Position numbers and translations under genes: made by a program
In this document: in pieces, positions 12,280 to 23,446 of the stretch
Position numbering within the stretch: the stretch's first letter is position 1
How the letters are laid out: every line of letters starts with the position of its first letter
From: a virus
Direction: 5' to 3' (one strand)
DNA length: 23,446 nt
Virus record (IMG/VR): IMGVR_UViG_3300043398_000328
Location: 1 to 23,446 of that record
Notes under the pieces: generated by a model
What the model saw: the letters and a program-made list of their open reading frames with translations, nothing else
What the model was told of the DNA's origin: nothing
Database searches by the model: none

Positions 12280-12634
12280 CGCGACCACCATCGCCAGCGG
12301 CGCGCGCGACGCGCAAGCCGACGCCTTCGACGCTCTCATCAACACGGGCGGCGGCACGGCGGTGCTCCGCCTGCGCAACAGCACGACCACGCTCGCCACC
12401 TTCAACCTGAGCAACCCTGCCTTCGGTGCGTCCAGCTCGGGCGCCATCACGCTGAGCGGCGTCACCATCAGCGCCACAGCCAGCGCCGGCACGGCGACCG
12501 CGGTGGACAACTACCAAATCCTGGACCGCGGCGGCACGGTGCAGTGGACCGGCGCCGTCACCGGCAGCGACACCATCACCAGCGGGCAGACAGTGAATTT
12601 GACTTCGCTGGTGATAACATGGCCGGCATCATGA
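12260..12634 (+). CDS. Short phage structural protein, paralogue of the gene at 11681
   Basis: This is a 124-residue protein from ATG 12260, with GGAG at 12244-12247. It opens MALTLGNATTIASGARDAQADAFDALINTGGG written across residues 1-32, continues with a strand block (LRLRNSTTTLATFNLSN) and a FGASSSGAITLSG block, then strands such as DNYQILDRGGTVQWTGAV. This is a widespread phage family of small all-beta proteins, typically encoded near fibre or head-decoration genes. It shares its layout with the protein at 11681-12100, which implies a duplication followed by divergence. Its stop overlaps the start of an HNH endonuclease gene. Confidence 0.65.
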   Translation: MALTLGNATTIASGARDAQADAFDALINTGGGTAVLRLRNSTTTLATFNLSNPAFGASSSGAITLSGVTISATASAGTATAVDNYQILDRGGTVQWTGAVTGSDTITSGQTVNLTSLVITWPAS

Positions 12635-13110
12635 ACCTGACTGACGAACAGGTGAGGCTCTTCTGGAGCCGTGTCGAAGTTGGCGCGCCTGAAGCGTGCT
12701 GGCCGTGGCGCGGCACTGCTCTGCGCAACGGCTACGGCCAGGTGAAGCTGGACGGGAAGCGCTATCTGGCGCATCGCCTCGCGCTGGCACTGTCGGGCAA
12801 GGAGGTGCCGCGATACATGCACGTGCTGCATGCGCCCGTGGTCTGCCACAACAGGCTCTGCTGCAACCCGGGCCACCTGCGCCTTGGGACCGACGCCGAC
12901 AACGCGAAGGACCGTGCCAATGATGGGGCCGCAGCATACCAGCGTCCCGGCAAGTACGCGCCAAACGCCAAGCTCGGCCAGGCCGGCGCGGTCCTCGCCC
13001 GGTTTCTCGTGAGCCTCGGGAACCCTCGCTCCACGGTTGGGCGCTGGCTCGGGGTGTCCCGGGCTGCCATCTCACTGGCTGTAAGCGGGCAGACCTGGCC
13101 CGCATCCTGA
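12631..13110 (+). CDS. Free-standing HNH endonuclease with C-terminal DNA-binding domain
   Basis: I choose ATG 12631 because it forms an ATGA overlap with the previous gene; an in-frame ATG at 12619 would add four residues. The 159-residue protein has an HNH/AP2-like layout: NGYGQVKLDGKRYLAHRLAL (residues about 33-52), then VLHAPVVCHNRLCCNPGHL with His67, Cys72, Asn74, Cys77, Asn79 and His82 in the usual order, followed by LGTDADNAKDRANDG. The C-terminal part (about 110-159; NAKLGQ... STVGRWLGVSRAAISLAVSG) looks like a helix-turn-helix. Such proteins nick or cut DNA and often act as homing endonucleases or packaging-linked nucleases. Its place inside the fibre operon, away from DNA metabolism genes, favours a mobile homing-type gene. 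That last point is inference. Confidence 0.85.
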   Translation: MNLTDEQVRLFWSRVEVGAPEACWPWRGTALRNGYGQVKLDGKRYLAHRLALALSGKEVPRYMHVLHAPVVCHNRLCCNPGHLRLGTDADNAKDRANDGAAAYQRPGKYAPNAKLGQAGAVLARFLVSLGNPRSTVGRWLGVSRAAISLAVSGQTWPAS

Positions 13111-18046: not shown

Positions 18047-18258
18047 GCAGAGCAGGCCGCGTCATCTTCCGATTGCTGGGCGTCGTCGAGCTGGTTGCCG
18101 ACGCCTACGACTTCGTGCGCGGCTTCTTCCGGAAGCCGTCGCGCACCGTGCAGGACCTTCTCGATGAGCAAGAAGAAGTCATCCCCCTCCGGCGAGTCAC
18201 CAAGGCCCCGCCCCCGCAGCGAAGCGGAGGAACGCCTAGCCGAGGCCCTGGCCGCTGA
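18043..18258 (+). CDS. Small hydrophobic protein of the lysis cassette
   Basis: This 71-residue protein starts at an ATGA overlap with the endolysin. Residues about 7-29 (VIFRLLGVVELVADAYDFVRGFF) form an amphipathic or membrane helix, followed by a charged stretch (VQDLLDEQEEVIP) and a Pro/Arg/Gly-rich tail. Its last 95 bases overlap the next gene in another frame, so the C-terminus may be constrained by that gene rather than by its own function. Position suggests a second lysis factor (spanin-like or antiholin-like). No family is recognised. Confidence 0.45.
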   Translation: MSRAGRVIFRLLGVVELVADAYDFVRGFFRKPSRTVQDLLDEQEEVIPLRRVTKAPPPQRSGGTPSRGPGR

Positions 18259-18526
18259 CGCCATCCCGGGCTGGGACCTGACGCGCGAGTACCGCTTCCA
18301 TCCCGAGCGGCGCTGGCGCTTCGACTTCGCGTTCCCCTCGGTCAAGCTGGCGGTGGAGGTGGACGGCCGCGGCCACTTCCGCGGCAAGATGAGCACGGAC
18401 TACGACAAGCAGAACGAAGCGACCCGGCTCGGGTGGCGCGTGCTGCGCTTTCAGTCGGGCCAAAAGAGAAAGGCGACCGAGTGGGCCGCCTTCATCCGCG
18501 AGGTGTTGGTTACAGCTCCGACTTGA
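18164..18526 (+). CDS. PD-(D/E)XK-like small nuclease (DUF559/Vsr-like)
   Basis: Start ATG 18164 has AGGA at 18152-18155 with eight bases of spacing. The 120-residue protein has WRFDFAFPSVKLAVEVDGRG with Asp54, Glu65 and Asp67 in a PD-(D/E)XK arrangement. It then has DYDKQNEATRLGWRVLRFQSGQ, the phrase 'K-x-N-x-A-x-x-x-GW-x-VLRF' of DUF559/very-short-patch-repair-like nucleases. In phages these proteins are often annotated as endonucleases and may resolve branched DNA. It begins inside the preceding small gene and ends 17 bases into the convergent gene on the other strand. A role in resolving recombination or packaging intermediates is inferred. Confidence 0.75.
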   Translation: MSKKKSSPSGESPRPRPRSEAEERLAEALAADAIPGWDLTREYRFHPERRWRFDFAFPSVKLAVEVDGRGHFRGKMSTDYDKQNEATRLGWRVLRFQSGQKRKATEWAAFIREVLVTAPT

Positions 18527-18725
18527 TGGGAGGCCCGAGGTCCCAGTCGGGCGGCAGCAGCCGCTCGCTCAGCACATCGAAGTCAGCGTCGTTGAAGAAG
18601 TAGTCGTCGCCGACGGTGCGCCACCCGCAGTCATCGCCGCCGCGCATGGAGCCCCACCGCGCCACCTCCACCGCCATGGCCGGGGTCGGCTTGTACCGCA
18701 CCCAGTAGTACCCCGGCTCCCTCAT
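18510..18725 (-). CDS. Small conserved phage protein (YYWVRY motif)
   Basis: This 71-residue leftward protein starts at ATG 18725, an ATGA overlap with the exonuclease-annealase gene upstream in its operon. It opens with MREPGYYWVRYKPTPAMAVE and ends with DYFFNDADFDVLSERLLPPDW. The short 'GYYWVR...W...GDDYFF' pattern occurs in small phage proteins of unknown function encoded in early regions. It has no membrane segment or metal motif. The 3' end overlaps the convergent nuclease gene by 17 bases, which leaves no room for a terminator between the two transcripts. Confidence 0.6.
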   Translation of the reverse strand: MREPGYYWVRYKPTPAMAVEVARWGSMRGGDDCGWRTVGDDYFFNDADFDVLSERLLPPDWDLGPPIKSEL

Positions 18726-20341
18726 GCCGCCTTGGCCTCCAGCTCCTCAGCAGTGGTGCCAAACTCTTCGGGGCAGTAGAGGCCCATGGTGGCAGCGGGC
18801 CACAGCAGCCGGGCCAGCTTGCTGCCGGCCGTCTTGGTGAGCATGTCGGCGGGGCGCTTGACCCAGTTGCCGCCCTTGCCATAGGCGGCGTCTTTCACCA
18901 GCCCGGCCTGACGAGCTTCCTCGATGGTGTAGGTGAACGGCACCGGCTCGGGGGTGCCCCGACGCTTGCCCACCCACGTGCAAGACGTGGCGCTCATCGC
19001 CTTGGGGTACAGGTATTCAAACGTCGGGTCTTTCTCGGCGAGCGCTCGAATCAGATCGGCGCTGGCGCTGGGCTTGCCTTCCACGATGTGGAAGCCGGCG
19101 AGCGCAGTGGTCACGCCAATGCCCAGCTCCTTGGCGCGCATCATGACGGTAAAGATTTGGGCCTCCGTCTTAAACTGACTGTAGAGACCGCCGCGGTGGA
19201 GCCACTCGCTCATCGTGTACGCCGCCGTCAGGTCGACGGGTTGCAGGTCGGCGCTGACGATGCCGTACTTGCTTTGCGTGTAGTGGGGCACCTCGGAGAG
19301 CGCCGTGGTGGGGCGCGCCACCCGGGGAGCGGGCGCTGACTTGGGAGCGGAGCGCGGTTCCACCAGCTCAGGCTCCTCTGCTTCGGGCTCCTCACTCTCG
19401 GCGGGTTGAGTTGCCTTCTGCTGCAGCACCTCCTGGTACGCGCGGCGGGCGTCGTCGATGCCGGGGTGCGGCTTCACGTCGTTCTCTGCCGGCGGCATCG
19501 GGGTATCGTTGCGCGTGAACACGGCGTCGGTAATGTCCATGGCGTTCCTTTTTGGTTGCTCGGGTTGTGCGTCCCGTCGGGACAGCAGGGCGTCCGCGTC
19601 GAGCGGCACGTTGGTGTTCATGGTGACCAGCTCCAGGCTGAGCTTGAGCTTGTCCCAGTTGGCGGCGAGCGAGCGCAGCGTGGCGGGCGGCAGCTCCCCG
19701 GGGTTCTCCGCCATGCCCCGGGCCAGGCCCTCTAGCGTCTTATACTTGTTGCAGAGCTGAGGCGCCCGCTCTTTGCCGATGCCCGGCACGCCGGGGATGT
19801 TGTCGCTCTTGTCGCCGCACAGCGCCTGATAGAGCGGCATCAGGTGGGGGCGTACGCCCCACTTCTCTTCCACCCCGTCGGCGTCGCGCTTGACCCAGCC
19901 CTCGTCACCGTGGGGCGGGATGTACTGGACGACGTTGGGCGTGATGCACTGCGCGGCATCCTTATCGCTGGTCACGATGCGCACGTCATCACACCACACG
20001 CCATAGATGCTGGCGAGCGTGGCGATCACGTCGTCGGCTTCGTAGCCCTCGCTCCACGCTTGGGGGTAGCCGAGCCGCTGAATCTCGGCAAAGAGCCGCT
20101 TCTTCTGCGCGCGCTCCTCTGGCGTGGTGGCGGGGCGGTTCGCCTTGTACGCTTCGAAAACCGCGGCGCGTCTATAGGGCGGCGCGTCGCGGCACAGGAT
20201 GACGTGCGCCACGCCGACGCGCAGCTTGTCCAGGTCGCGCAGCGTCAGCTCTACCACCTGCATGGGGTCGGAGGCAGTGACCCAACGCTTCTTCCATACG
20301 TAGCTCAGGTCGACCAGTGCGATGGATGCGGGGCGGTTCAT
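18722..20341 (-). CDS. Fusion of FEN-type 5'-3' exonuclease and RecT-like annealing protein
   Basis: One 539-residue frame carries two complete-looking modules. Residues 1 to about 250 are a PolA-N/T5-FEN-like 5'-3' exonuclease: Asp11 in VDLSY, YKANR (65-69), YEADDVIATLA with Glu101, Asp103 and Asp104, TSDKDAAQ with Asp126 and Asp128, and CGDKSDNIPGVPGIGKE with Asp177 and Asp180, followed by the H3TH region. Residues about 268-350 are an acidic, Pro/Glu-rich linker. Residues about 370-535 resemble phage RecT-type annealing proteins (MRAKELGIGVTTALAGFHIV, EGKPSASADLI, FTYTIEEARQAGL, NWVKRPADMLTKTAGSKLA). Exonuclease and annealase normally work as separate partners in end-resection recombination, like Red alpha and beta. 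A well-placed ribosome site at Met268 suggests that the second module is also made alone. The gene overlaps both neighbours by ATGA. Confidence 0.85.
   Translation of the reverse strand: MNRPASIALVDLSYVWKKRWVTASDPMQVVELTLRDLDKLRVGVAHVILCRDAPPYRRAAVFEAYKANRPATTPEERAQKKRLFAEIQRLGYPQAWSEGYEADDVIATLASIYGVWCDDVRIVTSDKDAAQCITPNVVQYIPPHGDEGWVKRDADGVEEKWGVRPHLMPLYQALCGDKSDNIPGVPGIGKERAPQLCNKYKTLEGLARGMAENPGELPPATLRSLAANWDKLKLSLELVTMNTNVPLDADALLSRRDAQPEQPKRNAMDITDAVFTRNDTPMPPAENDVKPHPGIDDARRAYQEVLQQKATQPAESEEPEAEEPELVEPRSAPKSAPAPRVARPTTALSEVPHYTQSKYGIVSADLQPVDLTAAYTMSEWLHRGGLYSQFKTEAQIFTVMMRAKELGIGVTTALAGFHIVEGKPSASADLIRALAEKDPTFEYLYPKAMSATSCTWVGKRRGTPEPVPFTYTIEEARQAGLVKDAAYGKGGNWVKRPADMLTKTAGSKLARLLWPAATMGLYCPEEFGTTAEELEAKAA
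19538..19553 (-). promoter_or_regulatory. Internal ribosome-binding site at the exonuclease/annealase boundary
   Basis: Read leftward, AAAAAGGA is followed by ACGCC and ATG (19540-19538). AAGGA has five bases of spacing, a good Shine-Dalgarno. The ATG is codon 268 of the fusion gene and would give a 272-residue protein holding only the RecT-like module. Whether it is used is inference. Confidence 0.6.
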
Positions 20342-20526
20342 TTGGTGTCTTCCTTTTCCTGCCGGAGCCGGCAGTAGATGGGCTGGCCACTCGCGCGGTA
20401 GTGAGCTTCCGCCTCAGCGAGGCTGCCGAAGTAAAATCCCCCACAGACGAAATACCAGTGGGGCTGATGAGGCACCACGAAGGCGTTCAAAAGCTCTTCG
20501 TGCTCGCAATATCGCGATGGGGTCAA
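20338..20526 (-). CDS. Small protein leading the recombination genes
   Basis: I place the start at TTG 20526, with AGGA at 20537-20534 and seven bases of spacing; an in-frame TTG at 20532 is too close to that site. The 62-residue protein contains QPHWYFVCGGFYFGSLAEAEAHYRAS, then a basic tail RLRQEKEDTK. Its stop overlaps the ATG of the fusion gene (ATGA), so it is the first gene of that transcript. The aromatic, small beta-alpha character recalls small phage early proteins, but I recognise no family and assign no function. Confidence 0.55.
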   Translation of the reverse strand: MTPSRYCEHEELLNAFVVPHQPHWYFVCGGFYFGSLAEAEAHYRASGQPIYCRLRQEKEDTK

Positions 20527-20583: not shown

Positions 20584-20751
20584 TCAGCGCCCCTCGATGG
20601 AGCGCTCCAGCACGATCATCCGCTCCACCGTGTCGCGCAGCTGGCGAGAAACGATGTGGAATTCCCACCAGTCGGTGCCGTAGGCCTCGGCGGCCTTCTT
20701 GCGGAGCCGCTCAACCTCGGCTCGCACATGGTCCAGCACGAGCTGGCTCAC
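20584..20751 (-). CDS. Small helical protein coupled to the replisome organiser
   Basis: The 55-residue frame starts at GTG 20751, which overlaps the previous stop as GTGA. It is mostly helical and charged (LVLDHVRAEVERLRKKAAEAYGTDWWEFHIVSR then QLRDTVERMIVLERSIEGR, written here as two parts). The Trp-Trp-Glu-Phe patch in the middle is unusual for a simple coiled coil. I do not recognise it. Coupling to the replication gene suggests a helper of replication, for example a small helicase-loading or regulatory partner, but that is only a guess. Confidence 0.5.
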   Translation of the reverse strand: MSQLVLDHVRAEVERLRKKAAEAYGTDWWEFHIVSRQLRDTVERMIVLERSIEGR

Positions 20752-21758
20752 GCTGCTGCCCTCGCCTTCACGCGCTCCGCCAGCCACAGCTTCAGGGCCT
20801 TGAGCGCCTGGGGTCGAGAGAGCTTCACGCCGGCAGCCTTGGCCTCGTCGAGCCACTCCCGCACGACGGGCCCCCACTCGCCCAGGCCCTTGTCGGCGAT
20901 GTAGCGCTTGATGTTCCCGTCCAGCACCCGCAGGTCGATATCGATGAGCGGCTCGGGCTCCTCCCACGGCTTGGTGCGTGAGCTGGGCGGAGCTTCGTTG
21001 CGAGTCTTGGCCGCGCGCTCCTTGGCGCGGTCCTGCTCGCCCCAGGTCTTCCAGTTCGGCAGCAGCGTGCGGATGAAGTCCTCGAGCTTGTCGGGGAACA
21101 CACCCCAGCGCCCGCCGATGGGGCCCAGGCGGAGCTTGGCGAGCCGAGCGTCGAAGTCGACGACCCCGGCGATCGCGGCGTCCGCCCTCAGCTCGGCGCT
21201 CGGGGTCCAGTCCTCCGGAATCTTATCGATGCGAGCTGAGATGGTGGCTGCGGCAAACCCCTGGGGGGTAGGGGGGCAGCTGTTGTCTTCAACAGCTTTT
21301 GATTTAGGTGTAGGTATGGTTGTAGGTGCGTCAACCTTTGCGTCAGCGGGGCTCGCCAGTGACGCATCGTTAGCGGGGCCGTCTTCCTTCTGACGCTTGC
21401 GATAGCGCTTCATGTACTCGCGCTGGCGAGCGTTGGCGCTCTCACGCTTGGCCTGCTCACGCTCTTCGGTGTGGTCGAGCACCTTCCAGCCACGGGGCAC
21501 GCGCTCGATGATGCGTCCCTCGTGCTGGTCCTCGGGGTCGGCGTCGGGGTCTGTCGCCTCCATGGAAGCGAGCGCGTCGCGGGCCTCCTCGAGTGACACC
21601 TGAGCGCCGATGGCGACGCCGGCAGGAGAGGCGCACACGTAGCCCTCGGGGTCAGCGCTGAGCTTCAGCCACAGCCACACGCAGCGCCAGCTGGCGGGCA
21701 TGGCCCAGATGCGAGAGCGAATCGTACGAGCGAAGATGCAGGTGTACTGTTGTCGCAT
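20748..21758 (-). CDS. Replisome organiser / replication initiator (O-like)
   Basis: I start it at ATG 21758, with a GGGAGG-type site upstream; an upstream in-frame extension of 27 residues looks unlike protein. The 336-residue protein opens with a winged-helix domain (residues 1 to about 75): RSRIWAMPASWRCVWLWLKL, EGYVCASPAGVAIGAQVS, then IIERVPRGWKVLDHTEER and a basic REYMKRYRKRQ patch. This is the Phage_rep_org_N pattern. A low-complexity linker (about 120-165) follows, then a C-terminal domain with DWTPSAELRADAAIAG, GPIGGRWGVFPDKLEDF and WGEQDRAKERAAK, a layout seen in O-like proteins that recruit helicase or primase. It should bind the origin and load the host replisome. The linker DNA holds repeats that may be that origin. 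Confidence 0.78.
   Translation of the reverse strand: MRQQYTCIFARTIRSRIWAMPASWRCVWLWLKLSADPEGYVCASPAGVAIGAQVSLEEARDALASMEATDPDADPEDQHEGRIIERVPRGWKVLDHTEEREQAKRESANARQREYMKRYRKRQKEDGPANDASLASPADAKVDAPTTIPTPKSKAVEDNSCPPTPQGFAAATISARIDKIPEDWTPSAELRADAAIAGVVDFDARLAKLRLGPIGGRWGVFPDKLEDFIRTLLPNWKTWGEQDRAKERAAKTRNEAPPSSRTKPWEEPEPLIDIDLRVLDGNIKRYIADKGLGEWGPVVREWLDEAKAAGVKLSRPQALKALKLWLAERVKARAAA
21262..21398. other. Candidate replication origin inside the replisome organiser gene
   Basis: Within the linker-coding part lie two direct TGCGTCA copies 12 bases apart (21327-21333 and 21339-21345), an inverted copy TGACGCA (21360-21366) and a partial copy TGACGC (21391-21396). Three TAGGT motifs (21305-21327), an AT-rich stretch around 21286-21310 and G-runs at 21262-21276 accompany them. 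In lambda the origin iterons also sit in the middle of gene O. The match in layout is clear; origin function is inferred. Confidence 0.55.
21278..21297. other. Perfect 8-bp hairpin in the origin candidate
   Basis: AGCTGTTG (21278-21285) and CAACAGCT (21290-21297) enclose the loop TCTT and are followed by TTTTGATTT on the + strand. It could be a structural part of the origin or a terminator for rightward (antisense) transcription. Its place among iterons favours the former. Confidence 0.45.
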
Positions 21759-21788
21759 GTTGTGTGAGCCCTCCCTGGCTCCATAGAA

Positions 21789-21804
21789 GCGCCGTCCATG
21801 GCGC
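21789..21804 (-). terminator. Weak hairpin after the integrase gene
   Basis: GCGCC and GGCGC (21789-21793 and 21800-21804) form a 5-bp stem in the 49-base gap between the integrase stop and the replisome organiser start. There is no T-run in the leftward direction, so it is at best an attenuator; the two genes may be co-transcribed. Confidence 0.25.
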
Positions 21805-21807
21805 GGG

Positions 21808-23446
21808 TTACTTGCCGCGTTTGCGGCGAGCAGAGTCAATGCTGGTGACGTTGGAGTCGGTGGGTAGCGCCTGCAGTCGCTTCAAGAGCGAAGCGGCCAG
21901 GTCCCATCGCTCGCTGGCGTTGGCGAGGTCATACAAGGCCTTCAGCTCAGACTTGTCTGCCGAATCAAGTATCCCCCACCCCCCACCCTGGGGGTGGGGG
22001 ATAGAGTTTTCCTGGGCAGTCTGATGCCGTTTTTCTCGGGGTTTTTGAGCCTCAGGAATCCCCGGGTGTCCCGTGAGTGGATTTCTAATCCGCGGGTCGG
22101 GGGTTCGATTCCCTCCGGGCGTGCCCGTAATCATTGAGGAATTCGTCTCGTGCTCGTTTTTATCCCCCACCTTATCCCCCACCCTGGGTGCTTCCTTATT
22201 GAAGCCGAGCGCTACATCCAGGGGCAGGAAGTCGCCCTGCTTGGCGAGCACGGAGCGGGCGATTTCCTTCTTCCGCCCATAGTGCTTCTGCATGACCTGG
22301 CTGGTCGTGTGCTGGGTCCGGAGCATGATCTTCGACTCGCTCCAATCCTTGGCGAGCCAGAAGGCAACGGCGGTCTGCCTCAGGTCCTGGAAGCGGAAGG
22401 GCTCCATGCCGTCGCCGCTCGCGTGCAGGTCGGGGCGCACCTTGTCGTTCACGCCGCTGGCGATCAGGTCGGCGCGGACGCCCTCGGCTAGCTCCAGCAT
22501 CTCGTTGGCGTCGAGCTGGGGGAAGATGAAGTCGGTGGCCTTGGCGTCGCCGCGGAACGCATGGAGCGCGGCGGCGACTCCGGGGGCCAGCTCCCACTGG
22601 CGAGCGTTCTTGTTGTTCTTGCCCTTGCCGATCGTGATGATGCCGTTATCGAAGTCGATGTTGGAGTACTTCAGTCGCAGCAGGTGAGCGGCGCGCAGCC
22701 CCTCGCGCACGTCCATCCCGTAGAGCAGCCGGCGCCACAGGGGCAGCTCGACGTTGGCGAGCAGCTTGGCGTCATCGTGTGGGTACAAGATGGCGTAGCT
22801 CGGCGGCGTGCTGATGGGCGGCAGCCAGCCGATGAGGGGCAGCGGATACTCCTTGGAGGTGATGATGCCGCAGGGCGAGACGGCGCGCTGACACACGGTC
22901 TGGATGACCTGGTAGTATTGGCGCAGCGCCGTGGAGGTCTTCACCCTTGGGCTGACGGCGCTAGGCGACACCGCCTCGCGGCACTTGGCTTCCGTCAATC
23001 GCGTCATCGGGATATGACCGATGACGCGATTGATGTACGACAGCCGCGAGAGGTTGCAGCGCGTGGTCTCTGGCTCTTGCCAGAGCTTGCTCTTGTACGC
23101 GGCGTAACGGGGGTCGAGCGCTAGCTCGTTCTTCGCCCAGCGCAGAGAAAACTCCTGGAACGTGGGCACGCCCGGGGCGACCTTGGCCGTAGCCTTGTGC
23201 TCGCGCACGTAGCGGAGCGCCAGGCGAGCGGCTAGGCCCGCCTCTTCCGGCGTGGCGGACTTGGCCACCTCACGCAGCAGGTCGTGAACCTTGGCGTGAT
23301 CGCCCAGCGGCAGCAGGTCGTTACGAAGCGTCTCCAGGTCGCGCTTGCGCTTGGCAAACTGCGCAGCGGTGAGCGTGGCGGGGGCCATGCACTCGAGGCG
23401 CACGTCGCCGCCGACACGCAGCCTGATCAGGTAACCGCTCTTGGCC
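21808..23446 (-). CDS. int: Tyrosine integrase containing attP, 5' end cut by window edge
   Basis: A GTG at 23403 could start a 531-residue protein, but the frame stays open to the window edge (AKSGYLIRLRVGGD precedes it), so the gene probably begins beyond base 23446. Numbered from GTG 23403, residues 1-235 hold arm- and core-binding regions. The catalytic domain has GLRAAHLLRLKYSNID (Arg codon 22693-22695), FQDLRQTAVAFWL with Q-x-x-R in place of the usual H-x-x-R (22375-22389), and QKHYGR with the nucleophilic Tyr at codon 22279-22281 (residue 375). Residues about 427-443 are the antisense translation of a tRNA-Arg 3' end (GGNRTPDPRIRNP), and about 88 residues follow. The enzyme should integrate the phage at a tRNA-Arg(UCU) gene. 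The tail after the tRNA segment would be lost on integration, as known for Mx8. Confidence 0.88.
   Translation of the reverse strand, partial: AKSGYLIRLRVGGDVRLECMAPATLTAAQFAKRKRDLETLRNDLLPLGDHAKVHDLLREVAKSATPEEAGLAARLALRYVREHKATAKVAPGVPTFQEFSLRWAKNELALDPRYAAYKSKLWQEPETTRCNLSRLSYINRVIGHIPMTRLTEAKCREAVSPSAVSPRVKTSTALRQYYQVIQTVCQRAVSPCGIITSKEYPLPLIGWLPPISTPPSYAILYPHDDAKLLANVELPLWRRLLYGMDVREGLRAAHLLRLKYSNIDFDNGIITIGKGKNNKNARQWELAPGVAAALHAFRGDAKATDFIFPQLDANEMLELAEGVRADLIASGVNDKVRPDLHASGDGMEPFRFQDLRQTAVAFWLAKDWSESKIMLRTQHTTSQVMQKHYGRKKEIARSVLAKQGDFLPLDVALGFNKEAPRVGDKVGDKNEHETNSSMITGTPGGNRTPDPRIRNPLTGHPGIPEAQKPREKRHQTAQENSIPHPQGGGWGILDSADKSELKALYDLANASERWDLAASLLKRLQALPTDSNVTSIDSARRKRGK
21970..22003. 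repeat. Left pair of inverted 11-bp repeats (integrase arm-site candidates)
   Basis: TATCCCCCACC lies at 21970-21980 and its inverse GGTGGGGGATA at 21993-22003. Together they form a perfect 13-bp inverted repeat (21971-21983 and 21990-22002) around a 6-base loop. They sit about 75 bases left of the tRNA-like core. Confidence 0.65.
22077..22125 (+). other. tRNA-Arg(UCU) 3' fragment: attP core candidate
   Basis: The sequence folds as the 3' part of a tRNA: anticodon stem GTGGA/TCCGC (22077-22081 and 22089-22093) with loop TTTCTAA and anticodon TCT (22084-22086), a five-base variable loop, T stem GGGGG/CCCTC with loop TTCGATT, acceptor strand CGGGCGT (22116-22122), discriminator G and CC. No D arm or 5' acceptor strand (ACGCCCG expected) precedes it. 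It is therefore not a working tRNA gene but the copy a phage carries to rebuild the host gene upon integration. Confidence 0.85.
22161..22183 (+). repeat. Right pair of direct 11-bp repeats (integrase arm-site candidates)
   Basis: Two direct copies of TATCCCCCACC at 22161-22171 and 22173-22183 (12-base period) lie about 36 bases right of the tRNA-like core. The second is followed by CTGGG, as also seen left of the core. They encode the odd GDKVGDK segment of the integrase, which suggests DNA-level rather than protein-level constraint. Confidence 0.65.

Follow-up and report, generated by a model that had tools for sequence, protein, structure and literature searches.

In phage lambda (exonuclease and Redβ) and in RecE/RecT, the nuclease and its annealing partner are separate proteins (PMC7496540, PMC8093625). 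The locus described here raises the question of whether a 5' nuclease and an annealase can be carried by one phage polypeptide and, if so, what such a protein would do. The window, i.e., the whole stretch of DNA that we analysed, is a linear 23.4-kb IMG/VR virus record. From its letters alone, an earlier note had proposed that a FEN/PolA-N exonuclease with all metal ligands is fused in frame, through an acidic Pro/Glu-rich linker, to a RecT-like annealing module. The reading frame from 20341 to 18722 starts with ATG and runs through 539 codons without an internal stop, and its parts are as follows.

18722..20341 (-): fused FEN–RecT gene, 539 aa plus stop (ORF, Pfam and PHROGs)
20351..20355 (-): Shine-Dalgarno-like AAGGA, 5' of the main ATG at 20341 (sequence; duplex energy -5.6)
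19586..20332 (-): 5' nuclease domain of FEN/PolA type (residues ~4-252); includes the H3TH/SAM-fold half and every metal ligand
19250..19585 (-): acidic linker rich in Pro and Ala (residues ~253-364), for the most part predicted to be disordered (model and composition)
18752..19246 (-): core of the RecT/Redβ annealase (residues ~366-530); its end lies 9 residues short of the stop

The whole-protein AlphaFold model has two confident domains and a linker mostly below pLDDT 50. It is confirmed that a FEN nuclease and a RecT annealase occur in one phage protein, a pairing previously known as two separate proteins.

Nuclease and annealase domains

Both Pfam domains of the nuclease half exceeded their curated cut-offs, namely 5_3_exonuc_N (PF02739) at residues 44-162 (1.7e-20, 73.8 bits against 34.3) and 5_3_exonuc (PF01367) at residues 163-250 (1.6e-19, 70.6 bits against 40); the polymerase domain PF00476 was not found by Pfam in the fused ORF. 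The PHROGs match of this half was an exonuclease (1.8e-30), and the nearest solved chain by sequence was Taq PolA (9.5e-28). The set of metal ligands (D11, D52, E101, D103, D104, D126, D128, D177 and D180) and arch residues (K66 and R69) is complete and identical in all 11 aligned relatives, and both ligands and arch residues are conserved across the 92 fused proteins described below, the exceptions being a single D103E and gaps where a row is partial. In Foldseek searches the model of this half resembled E. coli ExoIX (3.3e-17) and T5 FEN (4.3e-13), with further matches to plastid exonuclease 1, mycobacterial FEN and Taq. Profiles, ligands and fold all place this half in the FEN/PolA-type 5' nuclease family, in agreement with the earlier note, and nuclease activity is predicted. 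The best-known activity of FEN enzymes is that of a flap endonuclease, which cuts 5' flaps, and ExoIX, the closest fold to this half, is not known as a classic end-resecting exonuclease.

For the C-terminal half, RecT (PF03837) matched residues 458-532 (8e-8, 32.5 bits against a cut-off of 24), a cut-off under which remote members of the fused clade score, and the PHROGs match was a RecT-like annealing protein (4.3e-13). Because Foldseek with the full-length model listed FEN matches only, we modelled the RecT domain separately with 46 relatives (pLDDT 90.3); the only significant PDB match of this model was lambda Redβ 7ujl (9.8e-6), which the sequence profile of the RecT half also retrieved (8.3e-7). 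Pfam, profile and modelled fold therefore bear out the earlier assignment to an annealing family: this half is a RecT/Redβ-fold annealase core, and annealing of single-stranded DNA is predicted from the family.

What follows the core differs between fused and standalone proteins. The residues past the RecT core number 0-10 aa in 61 fused proteins versus 37-315 aa in 29 standalone RecTs, and 0-14 in 68 fused representatives, i.e., the C-terminal region has been lost in every fused protein. In Redβ, the corresponding C-terminal domain is where lambda exonuclease and SSB bind (PMC8303780); Redβ truncated there still anneals, but recombination is abolished (PMC5052646).

Distribution and origin of the fusion

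As the earlier note had suggested, we looked for the fusion in other phages. IMG/VR was scanned with each of the two parts, RecT and FEN, and HMM classification of open frames then gave 92 non-identical fused proteins that form 44 clusters at 50% identity; the same joined gene is present in about 90 different uncultured phages (contigs are given L numbers below). No re-splitting of the fusion was found within this examined set. When the RecT core was placed in a maximum-likelihood tree, the 53 sampled fused contigs all fell into one clade (support 97/98) and all 29 standalone RecTs fell outside it, so the fusion arose once. Comparison of close pairs gave dN/dS values of 0.07-0.32 for FEN and 0.02-0.14 for RecT, that is, strong purifying selection on both domains with a looser linker. 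One pair, L005 and L131, has nearly identical FEN halves (dS 0.22) and diverged RecT halves (dS 2.26), a pattern that fits a recent exchange of domains at the linker.

Two further searches went beyond IMG/VR. When three family members, P0001, L012 and L010, were used as tblastn queries against 50,697 sequenced phage records, no match covered 80% of the query, and one peptide-pattern scan of cellular genomes, which reaches close relatives only, found just a FEN in a Sphaerochaetaceae MAG. A seeming N-terminal domain before RecT in L136, L137 and L154 was rejected, because that stretch of frame lies 5' of the true Met and is non-coding.

Replacement of the annealase

The FEN and linker recur in L007 (9992-11719), where they are followed not by RecT but by a protein matching phrog_3290, 'single strand annealing protein' (2.8e-49). 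This protein shares 53-55% identity with proteins of many mycobacteriophages and of Streptomyces phage ZL12. A second contig, L182 (3677-5728), has the same architecture of FEN, linker and non-RecT annealase (phrog_3290). The phrog_3290 proteins of Streptomyces and Mycobacterium phages are the same annealase, but as judged from the features under each match they are annotated as annealing or hypothetical proteins and not as FEN fusions. In the FEN tree, L007 lies inside the fused clade as sister to the FEN-RecT fusion L004 (support 100/99, 75% identity), and the annealase was therefore replaced after the fusion. The conserved unit is a nuclease tied to some annealer, rather than to one particular annealer.

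Nucleases and polymerases in related records

All 30 FEN-annealase records, L007 included, have exactly one FEN, and none of the 20 standalone-RecT records has one. Family-A DNA polymerase (PF00476) was found in 0 of these 50 related records, which rules out the view that the FEN is a stub of a phage PolA. PDDEXK exonucleases (YqaJ and PDDEXK_1) over the cut-off were found in 0 of the 30 FEN-annealase records and in 4 of the 20 standalone-RecT records (YqaJ in L122; PDDEXK_1 in L117, L141 and L151), counts that refer to two profiles and to many contigs that are fragments and could have a second nuclease beyond their ends. According to their coordinates, three of these four genes directly adjoin RecT and one is about 1.8 kb off, and in the RecT tree the standalone RecTs closest to the fused clade include those of L117, L141 and L151. 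The difference of 0/30 versus 4/20 (p about 0.02, calculated by hand) gives modest support to the view that the FEN fills the exonuclease slot. In the simplest history, the docking region was lost from a RecT that had relied on a separate PDDEXK partner, and a FEN became covalently attached to it.

Linker and candidate internal start

The linker, acidic and Pro/Glu-rich in the earlier description, is indeed rich in A, P, E and D and disordered in the model, where residues 263-295 and 310-364 are below pLDDT 50; its length varies from 40 to 195 aa across relatives. The earlier note had noticed neither the annealase swap nor a probable internal start in this linker that would give free RecT.

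19538..19540 (-): candidate internal start ATG, Met268, with a predicted 272-aa linker plus RecT product
19546..19550 (-): Shine-Dalgarno-like AAGGA, 5' of the internal ATG (sequence; -5.6 kcal/mol)

Among 68 representatives chosen with a 70% identity cut, 50 have an in-frame ATG just past the end of FEN, between codons 10 and 32 of the linker, and 18 have no ATG in this zone. Met makes up 5.0% of residues in the zone versus 1.7% elsewhere in the linker (p=1.5e-10). The Shine-Dalgarno pairing of the zone's first ATG was stronger than that of other in-frame positions of the same zone (mean percentile 0.23, 65% within the top fifth, p=1.2e-7), a comparison set that controls for acidic codons; the Shine-Dalgarno/ATG signal was retained among 32 sequences at 50% identity (p=2.7e-5). 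The signal could have been a by-product of Glu/Asp codons, and a first codon-shuffle test had been weak (combined p 0.0015, 31 sequences); the larger and locally controlled tests retained the signal, which we therefore keep as a prediction. Judging from these sequence patterns, a second, RecT-only product is probably made from the conserved internal start.

Proposed function and alternative explanations

We consider it quite likely that the gene encodes a one-gene single-strand-annealing recombinase of a temperate phage, in which a FEN nuclease occupies the exonuclease slot. The FEN-type half would take off 5' strands or flaps at DNA ends, and the RecT half, carried on the flexible acidic linker, would be delivered to the exposed single strand and anneal the complementary strand. 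The covalent tether would substitute for the docking of the annealase C-terminal domain onto a separate exonuclease in lambda Red. The internal start would probably also supply RecT on its own, in which case the subunit tied to the nuclease may seed the filament and free RecT may extend it. The full scheme of two in-frame products, one loading in cis and the other extending the filament, with a tether in place of the docking domain and an annealase exchangeable between unrelated families, is about as likely as not. The enzymatic activities, the loading in cis, the two products and the role in recombination are predictions; those on activities, loading in cis and recombination draw on the families of the two halves (for RecT/Redβ, PMC9772228, PMC5052646). 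Coupling of nuclease and annealase as the function of the fusion is favoured by the conserved joining of the two, the lost docking region and the annealase replacement.

The order of events could also be the reverse, which we regard as less likely but as a serious alternative: RecT would anneal first, for example at the lagging strand or between resected ends, the tethered FEN would then clear 5' flaps or primers, and a host nuclease would do the resection. Both orders are possible because FEN enzymes can do either, and trimming after annealing accords with the FEN/ExoIX/T5 fold and its conserved arch residues as well as with the lack of DNA polymerase A in all 50 records. According to a review of lambda, flaps are cleaved during resolution by PolI or a 5'-3' exonuclease (PMC7496540), and in a model for T7 the displaced strand is cut by gp6 (PMC3276506). 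However, annealing followed by trimming does not account well for the absence of FEN from all 20 standalone-RecT relatives, nor for the finding that the nearest of these have an end-resecting PDDEXK nuclease beside RecT, whereas the fused phages are without a detectable one.

Less probable again is that the joining serves joint expression only, with the two halves acting independently or being cleaved apart and the internally started RecT being the main active annealase. The conserved ATG with its Shine-Dalgarno-like site where the linker begins, and the disordered linker of such variable length, would suit this explanation, but the fusion has been maintained over all 44 clusters without re-splitting, the C-terminal region is gone from every fused protein, and the tether was retained through the annealase swap. 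An artefact, i.e., a sequencing or assembly error that joined neighbouring genes, has a practically negligible probability and is refuted by the fused relatives, which are on independent contigs with one open frame each, lack the stop near codon 265 that such a join would leave in them, and have both halves under purifying selection.

Comparison with known systems

The recombinase proposed here, with FEN in the exonuclease slot, resembles the 'SynExo' pairs lambda Red and RecE/RecT in having a 5' nuclease and a RecT/Redβ-fold annealase, with presumed loading on the exposed strand, and it probably works like a Red/RecET system. The known pairs, however, are two genes whose nuclease has the PDDEXK fold and whose partners dock, whereas here one gene has a FEN fold and a covalent linker; the annealase of Red/RecET has a C-terminal domain for docking of exonuclease and SSB, which the fused proteins, with their 0-14 residues past the core, are without. 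Because a separate PDDEXK gene and the docking domain are both missing, we have not filed the fusion as Red/RecET.

T7 gp6 is a FEN-family nuclease, and T7 gp2.5 is an OB-fold SSB and not a RecT. The two have been modelled as acting together in strand-annealing recombination (PMC3276506), and a nuclease with an annealer outside the PDDEXK fold is already known in trans. The fusion is likewise a nuclease with a phage annealing protein, but the T7 proteins are separate and the partner here has the RecT fold. The earlier statement that the nuclease of the known two-component systems Red and RecE/RecT is of a different fold and a separate protein holds, with T7 gp6 as a qualification outside these systems. 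The stand-alone FENs (T5 D15, T4 RNase H, E. coli ExoIX and the PolA 5' nuclease) share the fold, the ligands and the H3TH/SAM half, but carry no annealase, and in PolA a polymerase follows the 5' nuclease whereas the fusion has none. The stand-alone RecTs of L117, L123, L141 and L151 and of Gordonia, Microbacterium and Salinibacter phages have the same annealase core, but no fused nuclease, and extend 37-315 residues beyond the core. No natural FEN-annealase or exonuclease-RecT fusion was found in the full-text literature, a coverage that leaves out most subscription papers.

The fusion bears on the question of how the exonuclease of lambda Red passes the new 3' strand to the annealase. A natural 1:1 tethered fusion in which the docking region is lost and the annealase is swappable makes in-cis loading directly testable through linker changes. 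Exonucleases and annealases of lambda and Rac are not interchangeable between the systems (PMC5052646); in the fused phages one nuclease has naturally received a different annealase, so partner specificity may no longer apply once the two are tethered. With nuclease and annealase in one gene, a portable tool for double-strand recombineering is also conceivable.

Neighbouring genes and other observations

No tRNA was found in the window. The genes around the fusion are as follows.

18510..18725 (-): 71-aa ORF without a family match; its ATG and the TGA that ends the fusion overlap
20748..21839 (-): upstream gene without a family match
21808..23403 (-): tyrosine integrase

The integrase suggests a temperate phage. 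Because of its overlapping ATG, the 71-aa ORF is possibly translationally coupled to the fusion. By inspection, look-alikes of the upstream gene precede the fusion also in L004 (4864-5952) and L007 (7461-8570). A DUF559 (restriction-endonuclease-like) gene is near the fusion in the window (18095-18526), L004 (8760-9128) and L007 (11834-12250); it is convergent with the fusion in the window and downstream on the same strand in L004 and, by inspection, L007. The small gene after the fusion in L003 (8294-8806) has the DnaA C-terminal DNA-binding domain (Bac_DnaA_C, 5e-16) with the ATPase absent.

Other FENs of unusual length were also encountered. Those of L017 (9365-11269), L018 (2-1438) and L015 (1887-3293) have C-terminal parts of about 180-200 residues with no match among the families tested. 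Those of L027 (8936-10789), L028 (8687-10750) and L052 (8759-10717) have an N-terminal extension of about 350-450 residues, which in L027 and L028 matches the NusG-like transcription antiterminator phrog_6386 and makes another unusual FEN fusion. Among the tail genes of the window, an ORF at 12544-13110 resembles an HNH-type endonuclease by eye.
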